From positions 1-32,964 of the forward strand of contig VYDB01000011.1 in NCBI GenBank assembly GCA_009843635.1: a stretch of 32,964 nucleotides of DNA, read 5' to 3'. Position numbers and translations under genes: made by a program. The notes under the pieces are model-generated. The model saw only the letters and a program-made list of their open reading frames with translations. It was not told the DNA's origin and did not search any database. Position 1 is the stretch's first letter. Each line of letters starts with the position of its first letter. Source of the stretch: Gammaproteobacteria bacterium (GTDB taxonomy: Bacteria > Pseudomonadota > Gammaproteobacteria > Pseudomonadales > Azotimanducaceae). Below are positions 133 to 7,329 of the stretch, piece by piece.

Positions 133-840
133 CTAACTCTTCACAAAATGACCTAGGTAGTGGCGGCTTTCGGACCGTTCGCTGGTTGGAGGTACGCAGG
201 CGTCGTGGACAAGACGCTCGGTGCTGCAGACGTAGGCGACGTTCGCCGCCTGAAGGATGCGCAAGCAAGGGATGCGCGGGGCACTCTGGAGGTAAAGGTC
301 CGCCACTTCGCTGGGGTGACGGCTTTTGGGTGACTCGATGCGCGCCGCCATTGCCTCGATCGGCACAGGGACCAGATAGAGATACCGCTCTCCAGGGCCT
401 CCGTTCACAACTATGCGGTTTCGGCTCTTCCAGCGAGCGGCCATATCGAGCCCGTCCCACGAATCGACGTGCAGCCCCAAGCGCAAGTTCGATTCATGAT
501 CCACCGTGATCGAAGGATGGTTCGCGTCGTCGATGGACGGGTCGAGAGCAACCACCGGCGACAGGCTGAGAAAGGGCTTGAACTCCAATGCCCTCTCCGA
601 CCTCAGGCCGCAATGAAAGAATGCGGCAAAGTTCAGTTCGTCTTCGATCGACAGTTCATCGAGCGAGCCGGTGTATTCAGTAACTTCAGATTCACTCAGC
701 TTGCGGAAGTCGATGGGCAGTTTGGCGCCGGATCGATAGTCAACGGCGTCCGGGTAATGCTCCTGTGCACAAACGAGCGTGTCGCTAAACGAAATCAGGT
801 CCCGAATATCTCCGAGCCTACCGTCAAAGAAGACTCTCAT
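133..840 (-). CDS. Putative 2OG-Fe(II) oxygenase, RiPP-modifying (YhhC-like)
   Basis: A 235-residue protein. The ATG at 838-840 lies two bases beyond the stop of the radical SAM gene, so the two are almost certainly co-translated. Residues 122-130 read GLHVDSWDG, giving an HxD pair (H124, D126) expected of the facial triad in 2-oxoglutarate/Fe(II) dioxygenases. H212 in a LVHD context is the best candidate for the distal histidine. The stretch RNRIVVNGG followed by RYLYLVP looks like beta strands of a double-stranded beta-helix. Cyclophane-forming radical SAM loci are known to carry a small 2OG oxygenase that further oxidises the peptide, and I infer this role from position and the HxD motif. 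The family call is tentative; a different DSBH fold protein is possible. Confidence 0.6.
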   Translation of the reverse strand: MRVFFDGRLGDIRDLISFSDTLVCAQEHYPDAVDYRSGAKLPIDFRKLSESEVTEYTGSLDELSIEDELNFAAFFHCGLRSERALEFKPFLSLSPVVALDPSIDDANHPSITVDHESNLRLGLHVDSWDGLDMAARWKSRNRIVVNGGPGERYLYLVPVPIEAMAARIESPKSRHPSEVADLYLQSAPRIPCLRILQAANVAYVCSTERLVHDACVPPTSERSESRHYLGHFVKS

Positions 841-842
841 TC

Positions 843-2024
843 TCAGATCAAGTCCGCTCCGATCTCTTCCAACGGCTCGCCGTGCAATGCCAGATACTTC
901 AATACATGGGTGTAGAAGTTGTCCAGGCCTTGGCAATAGACCGTCGGGTTGTCGAAGCCGTTGCTGCTGGCATAGCGGTGTACCGGTTGGCCACTGCCAC
1001 AGACGTCTCGCCAACAGCAATCCGAACATGAAGATGCGGGCGTTCCCTTGAACTTCTCGAAGTCATGAAACAAGGGGTCCTGAAGGATCTCCTCGAGGCT
1101 TGAACTCTTCAGGTCCCGGTACTCATAGCCACTCCAGTACTTCGTGGACCTCAAGGTGTCGTCCGGCCCCACTCCGCCATCGGACGACACGGTGATTAGC
1201 ATGTAGTCCGGATCGCTTCTGCCGCCAGCAAAGAGGAAGTTCCCCTGCCCGTAGATTCGCGCCAGGAAATGATCGATAAACCTGACGCTGACGGATTCAT
1301 CGTCATCCACCATCATGTCGAACACCTTGATCAGAAACGCTCCATAGGCTTGCGCGTCACCGGAAAAGTTGTCGTGATTGAGGTCAGGGAGCAAAAAGTC
1401 GAGGTGTTCCACCTTGAGGTCGTTTCGAAAGTGTGGGTAGATTTCCTTGGCGTCGAACTCCTCACCGATCACGGCCAAGACCGTTGGAGGCTGATGCAGG
1501 TGTTCCTGGCACAAGGCCAATCCTTGAACGGTCGCATGGTAGGAGGACCGGCCGCGATGATCGAGCCGATGGGCGTCGTTGTGCGCCTTTGCTCCGTCAA
1601 GGCTGATGCCCACCTGCACGTCATGTCTGTTGAAAATCTCTATCCACTCGCGATCAATCAGCATGCCGTTGGTCTGGATTGTCAAGGACAGGTCGAGCAC
1701 GTCCACCAGATTGGATTTGATCTCTTGGCATACCCGGTCGAAACGAGCTTTCGGCATCAATAGTGGCTCGCCGCCGTGCAGGTGAACGGCGATTCGCTCA
1801 AGCTTGCACGCCTCGGAAAACTCTCTCAGCCGCCGCACCACCAGCGCGATCGTGTCGTCGCCAATAAACGCCGCATGCTGCTGGTAGCTGTCGTCGCCAG
1901 CGTTGAAGAAGTAGCAATAGTCGCAGTTCAGGTTGCAGCGCTCGGTGATCTTGAGTATGACCTCCAGCGTCTGGAGCTGCTCGAAGCTCACCCTGTTTCG
2001 GTCACTGGCGATACGCACGGCCAT
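843..2024 (-). CDS. Radical SAM/SPASM peptide maturase, cyclophane-forming type
   Basis: A 393-residue protein. The CxxxCxxC motif binding the radical SAM 4Fe-4S cluster is at residues 30-37 (CNLNCDYC). The HLHGGEPLL segment is the usual GGEP motif near SAM. The C-terminal SPASM/twitch region has C333, C336, C342 and C364 in a DVCGSG...HRY...GFDNP.VYC pattern that closely resembles the FxsB, XyeB and GrrM maturases, which join an aromatic residue to a beta-carbon two residues on (three-residue cyclophane, or triceptide). It lies between a repeat-bearing precursor gene upstream and an HxD oxygenase-like gene downstream, all on one strand. The start has no clear Shine-Dalgarno. The exact bond made is inferred, not seen. 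Confidence 0.85.
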   Translation of the reverse strand: MAVRIASDRNRVSFEQLQTLEVILKITERCNLNCDYCYFFNAGDDSYQQHAAFIGDDTIALVVRRLREFSEACKLERIAVHLHGGEPLLMPKARFDRVCQEIKSNLVDVLDLSLTIQTNGMLIDREWIEIFNRHDVQVGISLDGAKAHNDAHRLDHRGRSSYHATVQGLALCQEHLHQPPTVLAVIGEEFDAKEIYPHFRNDLKVEHLDFLLPDLNHDNFSGDAQAYGAFLIKVFDMMVDDDESVSVRFIDHFLARIYGQGNFLFAGGRSDPDYMLITVSSDGGVGPDDTLRSTKYWSGYEYRDLKSSSLEEILQDPLFHDFEKFKGTPASSCSDCCWRDVCGSGQPVHRYASSNGFDNPTVYCQGLDNFYTHVLKYLALHGEPLEEIGADLI

Positions 2025-2067
2025 CAGGCGAAATTGGCACGGCCACGGTCGCCCATGAGAGGCGTGT

Positions 2068-2105
2068 AATGCCCTGAAGCCTTTGAAGCTTCAGGACAAG
2101 GCATT
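2068..2105. promoter_or_regulatory. Long hairpin between precursor and maturase genes
   Basis: The arms AATGCC/GGCATT and CTGAAGC/GCTTCAG nest around a seven-base loop with a five-base bulge on one side. It sits in the 96-base gap between precursor stop and maturase start. No T-run follows on the minus strand. In RiPP operons such structures can stabilise precursor mRNA or reduce read-through so that more peptide than enzyme is made; that role is inferred here. Confidence 0.5.
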
Positions 2106-2120
2106 AGAGCCCTAAAGCAG

Positions 2121-2369
2121 TCAGCTTCCCACCGCTGTGCGATCAACCACAGGCGGTGAGGAAACAAAGTTGCCGCCTACTCGGGGCGGTGCCGAAACGA
2201 AGTTGCCGCCGGCTTGAGGCGGTGCCGAAACGAAGTTACCGCCCGCCCCGGCAAACCCCGAAATCTTCCTTTGAAGATTCGGGCTGATCGCCTTGCCTGC
2301 TGCTTGCCGTTGGTCCTCCGTGGAGATTCCCAACTTCTCCCTGAGCCTGCGCACCCTACGATCTTCCAT
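2121..2369 (-). CDS. Multi-core RiPP precursor peptide with GGNFVS[A/S]PP repeats
   Basis: An 82-residue peptide. Residues 1-40 form a charged leader (MEDRRVRRLREKLGIS..). Residues 43-73 hold three 11-residue units: GGNFVSAPP-QA, GGNFVSAPP-RV and GGNFVSSPP-VV. A short tail DRTAVGS ends the peptide. Each unit has an F-x-S triplet, the same spacing as three-residue cyclophane motifs and reminiscent of the FXSXX-COOH peptides paired with FxsB. The radical SAM/SPASM gene follows 96 bases downstream. A GAGGTGG ribosome site lies just upstream of the ATG at 2367-2369. I infer that each F-V-S becomes a cross-link, giving three rings, and that the oxygenase adds a second modification. No secretion or protease gene is visible in the window. 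Confidence 0.75.
   Translation of the reverse strand: MEDRRVRRLREKLGISTEDQRQAAGKAISPNLQRKISGFAGAGGNFVSAPPQAGGNFVSAPPRVGGNFVSSPPVVDRTAVGS
2151..2243 (-). repeat. Three tandem 33-bp units encoding the core peptide repeats
   Basis: Three in-frame direct repeats with an 11-codon period make up the core region of the precursor. GGCGGTGCCGAAACGAAGTT (plus-strand reading) recurs almost unchanged. Differences are mostly at the two linker codons and a few third positions, so the repeats have been kept at protein level. Confidence 0.9.
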
Positions 2370-4593: not shown

Positions 4594-7329
4594 TTAATGC
4601 CCGCGCAAGTTAACAGAATCCGCAACCACCTGATACGCCTGCTGTCCGAGCCGCTCGAACTCAGCAGCAAAACGCGACCCTGCCTGTCGTTGCGCAGTGC
4701 GGGCCTCCTCAAGGCGTTCAACGAGACGCTGCTGCTCCTCCCGGCTGGGAAAGGCGATGCGTATGGCTTCGAAGTCCCCTGTCTGCGCCCGTCTTCGATT
4801 GCTGTGTCCGGTGGTAATCGCCCGGAACGCACGCTGATAGTGGGGTGTGCGCAGCAAGTAAGCCAGAAAGCGTGGGTCAAGGCGACCATCGGTCACCTGA
4901 TAGATCGGGAATTCGCTGGTGACCAAAGCGCCATCAAAGGGTTCGGTGACAACGGCGATGCAGCCCTTCCATAGGTCGATGGAGGAATACACCAAATCGC
5001 CGCTGCGCGCCGAATGCCAACGGGACGGACTGCCGTCGAAATACATCCCCAGCCATTGCGGTGGGTTACGTCCTTTGCCTGCTTCTCGAGGGCGAATTTC
5101 GCCGTTCTGGCCGAGGGTCATCACCACAAACTCCTGATCGGGCGTTTCCTCCGGCCTGACCCGGCTATCCCGCCGCCGCATGAGATCACCAAGCCGATCG
5201 GAATTCCAACCGTCCGGTACGCCACTTTCTTCGCCCAGCTTGAAGAGAAAGTACTTTGGATCCAAACGGTTGCTCTCATGAGCCGACCAAAGGTCTTCGA
5301 AGGGCAGCGTGGCGCAGTGGGGATTGGTTACTCCCTCATATTCCGCGCCGCTGGCCAAGAAGCGCCGATACTCGCCAAGAATTGAACCTGCTTGATCGTT
5401 CGCAAGCATCCCGTTCGCCGCGGGCAGATACAAGTCGTTTTGTTCGGTAGCCGCACCAGTGGGCAGGTAGCCCACATGATCAGCCTCGGCCAAAAACGTA
5501 CGATGCTGCAGTATTGTCCAAGCATCAGCAATGGCTTGAGTCCGGTCTCGCCCTTCCGCCAGCGCCTCGTTGCGCACCTCCTTGAACTGGTTGGCCTCCG
5601 CTTCAACAAACTTGCGGAAAACAAGCACTGAAGTCTTGTTCTGGGCTCCCGACGTATGAAAGGCATGATCGGGGAGCGAGATGACCGCCTCAACGAATCC
5701 GTTTTCCGCCAGCAGCGCTCTGGCTTGGGGACAGTTCGATCCCTCACCCTGATTGTTGAGCAAGCCATCGGGCAGGATGAAGCCTAGGCGCCCACCTGGC
5801 GCCAACAGTTGGATCGACCGTTCAAGGATGACGTGCTCTGAGGGCACTTTTTGACGATCCCGAGCTATTTCAAAAGCTTCAAGAACGTTGGCCCCCAAAA
5901 GGTCCGGATCGCCAGCAGCCACTGAGTCCCCAAATGGCGGATTGCCGACAATGCAGTCGAAACCTCCCCCTCGCGCTGGATTTTCCGCCGACGCCAAAGC
6001 GAGACTCAGCCTGGCGTTGGCAAACTCAGTGTCCAAGCAGGAACGGTCACCTTCGACGTTCGTGTGCCCGTCTTGGTGCAGGAGCAGATTGATCTTGCAG
6101 ATGCGAGCGAGCGTAGCGTGAATTTCGATGCCGAACAGTCGATTGGCCGCAAAGTCGGATTTCGTTCGCACGAGCTGGGCTTGACCCTGATACGCTGCAT
6201 CAATGCGCCCCCACACCTGCAGCAGTGTCTCAAGCAGGAAGCCGCCGCTGCCCGCGGTCGGGTCGAGCACGTAGTGGCCCTCGTGGATGTTCAACAAGGC
6301 CACGATGAACCGCGCCAGCGGTCGCATGGTGAAGTACTGACCGAGTTCACCCCGGAAAATGGCGCCGAAAAACCCTTCAAACGCCGCCCCGATGACATCA
6401 ACATCGGTATTGGAAAAGCTGACTTGGTCCAATGTGCGGACCACGTCAACTATTTTGTCCGGCGGAAGACCAATTTCCGCCCCCGGCGGAAAGACGGCCG
6501 GGTCGCGGCGGACTGCTTCGGCGAAAAGTTGGCGAATGCGCGCTGCTACTGCTTCGGGCTTTTCGCGCACACCGACTTGGAACCGCCGCGGCTGGCCATT
6601 GGGCGTGTGACGCTCATCAGCAATTTTGGCAAACAGCAGCTTGCTCCACTCATCAAAGGCTGTGAGGGGATCCCGCTTTCCGCCCGACCATATGGCGGAG
6701 TGCGCCTGCCGAATGATCATGCCAACCCGCGAACGATCTACAACCGGCGCTATGTCCGTTTCGCCCCCAGCCACTAAAGCGAAAGCGGGTGCCTCGCCAT
6801 AGCAATGGGGTGCGGCATCTCGACTTCCGAGGACGTTCAGCACACGCTCCCCGGACGGAAATCCCGCCAAGTCAAAGAGCCTGCTGGTGTCATACTGGTC
6901 GTAAAGAACGTAAGCGCTCCGGAAACTGCCACCGTAGCCGAAAGCCTGCTCAATGGCTTGGCGCTCGACTGCATCCGTTGAACCAACGGGCTTGCACTCG
7001 ACCACCAAATAGGGGTCGCGATGCTCGTCATCCCTGAAGACCACGACATCCGCTCGGTCGCCGCCAGTTCTCGACGGCACCGTTACTTCAGTGCCAACCC
7101 GCTTAGCTGGATAGTCCCTTGCCACAACCAGAAAGGCGATCGTTCTCGCCCGCACCCACTCCTCGGGATTCCCCCAGTCGTAAGTCTTCGACGACCCGAT
7201 GTGATAGGTCACCGATTGCCCTTCAATCCCAACGACATTTCGCGCAATTGCCTCGATCAGGTGAGGATCACGGAGTGCGGCTTCAGCGGTGTCGGGCTTT
7301 GTGGCTGGCCGCATATTGGGTGAAGCCAT
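4594..7329 (-). CDS. Fused nuclease-N6 methylase-specificity protein (single-chain R-M)
   Basis: A 911-residue protein with three parts. Residues ~20-160 resemble the HsdR N-terminal nuclease domain, with D94 (GGDRADVVVF) and E111-C-K113 (YLVVECK) forming a PD-(D/E)xK site. Residues ~300-620 are an N6-adenine methyltransferase: GQYFTMRPLARF, SAM motif DPTAGSGG (356-363), IEIH (401-404) and catalytic NPPF (463-466). Residues ~705-905 look like one HsdS target-recognition domain, including SGDLVYSSI, FLAYLLRTPHY and a C-terminal helix. Cleavage, methylation and site choice in one chain is type IIG-like architecture with type I-like modules. It stands alone between metabolic genes. The start ATG lies 12 bases after a TATAAT, so the mRNA may be nearly leaderless. 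Confidence 0.85.
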   Translation of the reverse strand: MASPNMRPATKPDTAEAALRDPHLIEAIARNVVGIEGQSVTYHIGSSKTYDWGNPEEWVRARTIAFLVVARDYPAKRVGTEVTVPSRTGGDRADVVVFRDDEHRDPYLVVECKPVGSTDAVERQAIEQAFGYGGSFRSAYVLYDQYDTSRLFDLAGFPSGERVLNVLGSRDAAPHCYGEAPAFALVAGGETDIAPVVDRSRVGMIIRQAHSAIWSGGKRDPLTAFDEWSKLLFAKIADERHTPNGQPRRFQVGVREKPEAVAARIRQLFAEAVRRDPAVFPPGAEIGLPPDKIVDVVRTLDQVSFSNTDVDVIGAAFEGFFGAIFRGELGQYFTMRPLARFIVALLNIHEGHYVLDPTAGSGGFLLETLLQVWGRIDAAYQGQAQLVRTKSDFAANRLFGIEIHATLARICKINLLLHQDGHTNVEGDRSCLDTEFANARLSLALASAENPARGGGFDCIVGNPPFGDSVAAGDPDLLGANVLEAFEIARDRQKVPSEHVILERSIQLLAPGGRLGFILPDGLLNNQGEGSNCPQARALLAENGFVEAVISLPDHAFHTSGAQNKTSVLVFRKFVEAEANQFKEVRNEALAEGRDRTQAIADAWTILQHRTFLAEADHVGYLPTGAATEQNDLYLPAANGMLANDQAGSILGEYRRFLASGAEYEGVTNPHCATLPFEDLWSAHESNRLDPKYFLFKLGEESGVPDGWNSDRLGDLMRRRDSRVRPEETPDQEFVVMTLGQNGEIRPREAGKGRNPPQWLGMYFDGSPSRWHSARSGDLVYSSIDLWKGCIAVVTEPFDGALVTSEFPIYQVTDGRLDPRFLAYLLRTPHYQRAFRAITTGHSNRRRAQTGDFEAIRIAFPSREEQQRLVERLEEARTAQRQAGSRFAAEFERLGQQAYQVVADSVNLRGH

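Follow-up and report, generated by a model that had tools for sequence, protein, structure and literature searches.

A family of GGNFxSA repeat precursors beside SPASM radical SAM maturases and MicC-like oxygenases, a likely triceptide-type peptide cassette

The window analyzed here is a 32,964-nucleotide stretch of DNA from a gammaproteobacterium of the Azotimanducaceae (assembly GCA_009843635.1, contig VYDB01000011.1, positions 1 to 32,964). It carries a three-gene cassette in which a precursor peptide with repeated cores is followed by a SPASM-type radical S-adenosylmethionine (SAM) maturase and then by an oxygenase-like protein (Table 1). A gap of 96 bp separates precursor and maturase, and 2 bp lie between the maturase stop and the oxygenase start. 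A sequence-only reading of the window had proposed a locus for a ribosomally synthesized and post-translationally modified peptide (RiPP) made of a repeat precursor, a SPASM enzyme, and a protein with an HxD motif, and all three genes are found, in that order, on the minus strand. The third open reading frame (ORF) was listed as 133-1029. The opening 63 codons of that ORF run over maturase sequence in a different frame, and similarity to homologues starts only at 840, so the gene is taken as 133-840; start codons of the oxygenase homologues (16 aligned rows) were picked by hand. In the genome itself (4.49 Mb, 152 contigs), maturase, oxygenase, and precursor each give a single match.

Table 1. 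Genes and precursor segments of the cassette, in window coordinates
Feature	Coordinates	Strand	Evidence
Precursor gene (A), 82 aa	2121..2369	-	ORF; homologues 5' of maturase in 16/16 related loci; single own-genome match
SPASM radical SAM maturase (B), 393 aa	843..2024	-	Pfam Radical_SAM E 2.8e-14; alignment; tree
Putative MicC-like alpha-ketoglutarate/Fe(II) oxygenase (C), 235 aa	133..840	-	profile match PDB 9vkm E 2.5e-6; alignment
Leader region, residues 1-42	2244..2369	-	motif common to 53-aa single-core precursor of L003/L027
Core 1 GGNFVSAPP, residues 43-51	2217..2243	-	
Core 2 GGNFVSAPP, residues 54-62	2184..2210	-	
Core 3 GGNFVSSPP, residues 65-73	2151..2177	-	

To find relatives, 84,980 species genomes were searched with a three-sequence maturase alignment, yielding 23 loci: 16 at 65-96% maturase identity (L021-L036) and seven at 25-36%. 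Each of the 16 carries a homologous precursor upstream of the maturase, so that precursor and maturase are paired in 17 of 17 loci when the window is included. An absence of homologous peptides beside related radical SAM genes, which the sequence-only reading had named as grounds for giving up its proposal, is thus not what we observe. The locus is almost certainly a genuine RiPP cassette.

The window precursor holds three cores at an exact 11-residue period, each with an F-x-S triplet, as originally described. Its leader motif, MED..RxLREKLGIS..., is conserved across the family, and the precursor as a whole shares 62% identity with that of L003/L027, which has 53 residues and a single core. 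In total, 51 GGNF cores were counted in the 17 precursors, a core being counted only where the string GGNF is present, so that these four residues are fixed by choice and the later positions are free. There is one core in L027, two in each of L024, L028, and L035, three in each of eight precursors (the window among them), and four in each of five; the counts for L023 and L024 are lower bounds owing to N runs, and the L023 precursor was read in three frames around its gap without joining them. Ser occupies the second position after Phe in 51/51 cores, giving the aromatic-x-x triplet that is a feature of triceptides. The residue between them is Val in 47 cores, Ile in two, and Leu in two, and the residue after Ser is Ala in 48, Ser in two, and masked in one. 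Pro then follows at the next position in 47 cores and at the one after it in 42. Phe is the sole aromatic residue in the 51 nine-residue cores. The core Ser codons are spread over TCG, TCC, TCT, and TCA (12/14/15/9, plus one TCN) and the core Gly positions use all four Gly codons, the synonymous variation being judged by codon counts rather than a formal dN/dS. As the core sequence is preserved despite synonymous codon variation, and as homologous precursors occur at all 16 loci, the repeat is not a product of chance. By these alignments the conserved unit of the family is GGNFxSA. Linkers differ in length and content among the precursors, so the family as a whole has no fixed 11-residue period and no constant diproline; the diproline, earlier regarded as a possible cleavage or turn site next to each ring, cannot be essential, since L027 and L028 have none and L023 has Pro-Ser.

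The maturase has the radical SAM CxxxCxxC motif (C30/C34/C37) and five C-terminal SPASM cysteines (C333/C336/C337/C342/C364), all invariant in 17 aligned rows. Radical_SAM scores above the Pfam cut-off, and SPASM falls below its own (19.5 versus 21.5 bits). Among NCBIfam models, XyeB (285.6 bits; equivalog cut-off 450), YhhB (286.9; cut-off 445), and the FxsB subfamily (263.2; cut-off 370) all score below threshold, and window proteins give no YhhA (cut-off 36) or YhhC (cut-off 150) match at E <= 1. Phylogenetic analysis of 32 maturases puts the 17 family members in a clade of their own (100/100) on a long stem, sister (98/99) to a group containing Xenorhabdus XyeB, Trinickia, Paracoccus, and Pseudoalteromonas sequences, several of them on long branches. 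The 15 outside rows were hand-picked (10 of 23 plasmid matches, two plasmid GrrM rows, two of the seven distant loci, and L004); the Rhizobium YhhB row was trimmed to 420 residues and four rows span the matched range only. The family is thereby placed among XyeB, YhhB, and FxsB, as would be expected of a triceptide synthase. For the family profile, the best solved relative is the cyclophane synthase ChlB (E 1.5e-56). Together, the Cys motifs, the position beside XyeB, and the ChlB match bear out the assignment to cyclophane-type SPASM maturases. A search of viral contigs with the maturase gave no relative.

One of the plasmids with an XyeB-related maturase, Pseudoalteromonas pNC201 (L076:3647-3931), has an unannotated precursor-like ORF just upstream of it, with five Tyr-x-Gln triplets (YAQ, YGQ, YDQ, YTQ, and YSQ).

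A profile search matched the third protein to PDB 9vkm_A, the alpha-ketoglutarate oxygenase MicC, over profile positions 90-220 (E 2.5e-6). H124, D126, H212, and R226 are invariant in 16/16 aligned rows, and the HxD and distal His align with those of MicC. We infer that H124, D126, and H212 are candidate iron ligands and R226 a candidate 2-oxoglutarate (2OG)-binding residue. The earlier assignment to the 2OG-type oxygenases therefore gains support from MicC homology and from the invariant HxD...H and Arg, and the enzyme is likely to act on the peptide. It is present in 15 of the 16 related loci, L028 having none. No Pfam or NCBIfam match was found at E <= 1, with the longer ORF 133-1029 as query. 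Relatives in Nostoc and Streptomyces match the oxygenase profile at E 3e-21 and 1.4e-18 (for a set of 1000), and two of the three plasmid relatives, those of Nostoc and Streptomyces ADI95-16, adjoin GrrM/OscB maturases. Among open-licence papers in PubMed Central (PMC), nothing relevant here turned up on MicC with cyclophane or with ketoglutarate.

Both plasmid neighborhoods have further features. In the Nostoc plasmid pTCL26-01_E (L073:489-4441), a short peptide with the end NWDNSFLQWNDSWGNGGNGH is followed by GrrM/OscB and the MicC-like protein, and a phytanoyl-CoA dioxygenase-like protein is encoded upstream of this row. In the plasmid of Streptomyces sp. ADI95-16 (L074:4070-12170), GrrM/OscB and the MicC-like protein stand beside LanC-like, lantibiotic dehydratase, and thiopeptide-type proteins, and this cluster perhaps makes a mixed product.

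Taken as a whole, the cassette likely encodes a triceptide-type RiPP with one Phe-Ser cyclophane per core and subsequent oxidation. In the scheme we propose, the precursor leader would direct the SPASM radical SAM enzyme to every GGNFxSA core, where the enzyme would abstract a hydrogen from the Ser beta-carbon and bond that carbon to the aromatic ring of Phe at the second position before it. The predicted product has one three-residue Phe-x-Ser cyclophane per core, hence three in the window peptide, each with a mass change of -2 Da. Oxidation by the MicC-like oxygenase would come next, the most probable reaction being beta-hydroxylation at one residue of the ringed core (Asn, the Val/Ile in the middle, or the Ser of the ring). 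Leader removal, core release, and export would fall to enzymes encoded elsewhere. Triceptide links listed in the available excerpts of PMC11002830 join an aromatic residue at position i to the C-beta at i+2; they include Phe C4 to Ser C-beta for MscB and Phe C4 to Asn C-beta for XncB or OscB. Given this i/i+2 rule, the MscB precedent, and Phe as the sole core aromatic, we consider formation of the Phe-Ser cyclophanes quite likely. Where the sequence-only reading offered Phe-to-Ser rings or rings involving Asn, Phe, and Val, the former are thus favored and the latter less likely, as only Phe-x-Ser fits the pattern (PMC11002830).

Genes around the cassette recur in part of the family. A pair of Rieske alpha and beta subunits lies within 5 kb in seven of the 16 loci (L022, L023, L024, L026, L027, L028, and L036), the alpha subunit being nearest benzoate/anthranilate dioxygenase models and the beta subunit nearest 3-phenylpropionate dioxygenase models, all below cut-off. 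The alpha subunits are 69-99% identical among the seven loci. Placement varies. The pair sits immediately upstream in L022, L023, and L028 and downstream in L027, in these four loci on the cassette strand; in L024 it is divergent, and in L026 and L036 it lies downstream and convergent. The ortholog is found in exactly these seven of the 16 genomes, always at the cassette, and is absent from the other nine; other Rieske matches at E <= 1e-60 in the 16 genomes are 35-38% identical paralogues, in two of the seven. In 12/16 loci (L024-L026 and L028-L036) an NCS2-type permease is encoded within 5 kb. At about 588 residues it exceeds the xanthine/uracil permease models in length, and L025 has two unlike copies in tandem; seven of the 12 loci (L029-L035) belong to one group of close relatives and so are not independent. 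In the L027 genome the permease is about 6 kb from the cassette, and none was found in the stretches examined beside L022 and L023. A TonB receptor is common to two loci (L025 and L036), as is a TRAP solute-binding protein (L025 and L027).

These companions are kept although their arrangement differs, which points to a functional link more than to inherited gene order. As the window (33 kb) and its 96% relative (two stretches covering nearly all of a 29-kb contig) have neither, the Rieske pair and the permease are not part of the minimal cassette. The genome of the window has 27 Rieske matches and no ortholog among them (best E 4.5e-30), and its closest NCS2 permease (64% identical) sits on another contig; in members of the genus that lack the cassette, permease identity is about 50%. 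It is conceivable, though doubtful, that the Rieske pair belongs to the pathway, either with the dioxygenase tailoring the ringed peptide, for example on the Phe ring, or with the ringed peptide serving as cofactor or carrier for the Rieske enzyme and the permease. A tailoring Rieske dioxygenase would represent a novel type of RiPP enzyme; the other case would give a triceptide a role like that of pyrroloquinoline quinone or mycofactocin. No paper joining Rieske enzymes and RiPPs turned up in the open-licence PMC literature.

A prolyl peptidase was considered as the release enzyme and rejected, an S9-domain gene being found upstream in L026 and in no other searched locus. There (L026:2-4603), two large genes, distantly similar to each other, precede the precursor, and one has a prolyl oligopeptidase (S9) domain, placing a Pro-specific peptidase beside Pro-Pro cores. 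Elsewhere near the cassettes, one frame in L025 (L025:3-1607) matches both a LysM and a UvrD helicase domain, which is an unusual combination, and the window itself encodes at 4594-7329, on the minus strand, a 911-residue single-chain restriction-modification-like protein with an HsdR N-terminal domain, an N6 methyltransferase, and a type I specificity-like C terminus.

By oxygenase search, 3/9 genomes of the genus and 10/200 of the family have the gene, and none beyond the source genome was found among 369 class-level or 398 phylum-level genomes, sets that partly overlap. The 16 relatives come from metagenome-assembled genomes (MAGs) whose labels are Gammaproteobacteria (one Pseudomonadales and one OMG group among them), Alphaproteobacteria (with one Rhodospirillales), and Candidatus Binatota. 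Some of the bin names, RHO and COS for example, resemble Rhopaloeides and Coscinoderma, which are among the hosts in PMC8163846, although the bins themselves are not named in the excerpt available. From the bin names, the bacteria with the cassette are probably uncultured sponge symbionts of several groups. No open-licence PMC paper on sponge symbionts, radical SAM, RiPP, or cyclophane dealt with the family, judging by title and abstract opening. The window maturase is 81% identical to that of L023, from a MAG labeled Alphaproteobacteria, versus 73% to that of its genus mate L027, and the maturase tree does not follow the taxon labels. Constraining the genus together costs 14.5 log-likelihood units (approximately unbiased [AU] test, p-AU 0.066) and constraining the family 13.3 (p-AU 0.048). 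This pattern is suggestive of horizontal transfer, if the MAG labels, which may be wrong, are taken at face value; with the AU tests borderline and the inner branching of the maturase clade poorly resolved, transfer is likely rather than proved.

Other readings of the chemistry can be set against Phe-Ser cyclophanes. In the tvg cluster a repeated Gly-Gly/Val core occurs with a radical SAM enzyme and an Fe/alpha-ketoglutarate oxidase (PMC9062424), and by that analogy the maturase might act on Val, joining its two methyl groups so that cyclopropylglycine results, the reaction of TvgB on TVGG repeats. Yet Val is at the varying position of NFxS, replaced by Ile or Leu in 4/51 cores, Ile having no gem-dimethyl group, and the maturase groups with XyeB cyclophane synthases (TvgB being known here by description only), which makes action on Val very improbable. 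We also judge it unlikely that the core is closed by a different link, for instance through the conserved Asn or Gly or in a larger ring. GGN precedes Phe in all counted cores, partly by virtue of the GGNF selection, and the Phe-x-Ser rule has no need of it; moreover, larger Aro-x-x-Asn rings are predicted for other radical SAM clusters (PMC9062424). However, the listed triceptide links run from an aromatic residue to i+2 (PMC11002830), GGN may instead be a recognition element, and the single-core L027 precursor needs no inter-core link. As for the third protein, its lack of a Pfam or NCBIfam match, a weak structure model, and its absence from L028 would suit a peptide-binding or structural partner rather than an active oxygenase. 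This, too, appears quite improbable in view of the four invariant residues and the alignment with MicC, and the L028 case speaks for a protein that is dispensable, not inert.

If the product is a ringed and oxidized peptide, its use is a further point on which readings differ. Rather than a secreted antibiotic, it could be related to a cofactor, carrier, or metal and serve a nearby oxidative uptake pathway (Rieske pair, NCS2-type permease, TRAP/TonB). The strict co-occurrence of the Rieske pair with the cassette, the frequency of the permease, and the lack of any recognized exporter are consistent with such a role. Nevertheless, the window and its 96% relative do without both neighbors in the sequence examined, the window genome has no Rieske ortholog and keeps its nearest permease on a different contig, most permease loci are close relatives, and neighboring genes may merely travel together with the cassette. 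A role of this kind is thus a tentative possibility, on the unlikely side.

To our knowledge, the purpose of most triceptides is not known, and the Rieske and permease companions provide a handle on it. With this family, the maturases that probably form cyclophanes gain a separate clade beyond the named families, and triceptides are linked to uncultured, probably sponge-symbiotic bacteria of several groups. Reconstitution should be easy with so clean a repeat core, and the single-core L027 precursor, together with L028, which has no oxygenase, would allow ring formation and oxidation to be studied apart from each other.

Among known systems, XyeA/XyeB is closest by maturase, being the sister group with a small leader-core precursor directly upstream, but it has no GGNF repeats, and the links made by XncB are Trp to Arg/Asn or Phe to Asn (PMC11002830). 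In the Xenorhabdus cluster (L077) the third gene looks retropepsin-like, with HlyD and peptidase-ABC exporter genes after it; that third gene was ruled out as a homologue of the window oxygenase (-2.0 bits). MscA/MscB, of the FxsB group, has the link predicted here between Phe C4 and Ser C-beta (PMC11002830), whereas the two FxsB rows in the tree are on another branch, MscA/MscB itself being compared by description only. YhhA-YhhB-YhhC likewise has a precursor, a cyclophane radical SAM enzyme, and a 2OG-Fe(II) oxygenase in a row, but its cores are Tyr/His-x-Arg, and YhhC of L004 gives no match to the window oxygenase profile. L004 (L004:1283-4088), from the genus of the window, has all three Yhh proteins above NCBIfam cut-offs, with YDR and HNR motifs at the precursor end, and then encodes an aKG-HExxH beta-hydroxylase-type protein; L005 looks alike.

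MicC and the window oxygenase are of one family and have the HxD and distal His in common, and the MicC relatives in Nostoc and Streptomyces ADI95-16 also neighbor cyclophane maturases, although those GrrM/OscB partners are far from the window maturase in the tree. The poly-cyclopropylglycine (tvg) system combines a repeat precursor, a radical SAM enzyme, and an Fe/alpha-ketoglutarate enzyme, but with a TVGG core, modification at Val, and peptidase/transporter genes present (PMC9062424). For the ChlB fusion, cyclophane formation precedes alpha-ketoglutarate-dependent beta-hydroxylation, the order proposed here, but the hydroxylase is fused and of a zincin-like HExxH fold, as excerpted from PMC12636437, whereas the window has a separate HxD protein. 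A precursor with a cyclophane radical SAM enzyme and an alpha-ketoglutarate oxygenase is therefore an already known theme, exemplified by YhhABC and ChlB/HExxH and, with other radical SAM chemistry, by tvg. What is new is the GGNFxSA core, the maturase clade outside the named families, and the pairing with a MicC-like oxygenase.

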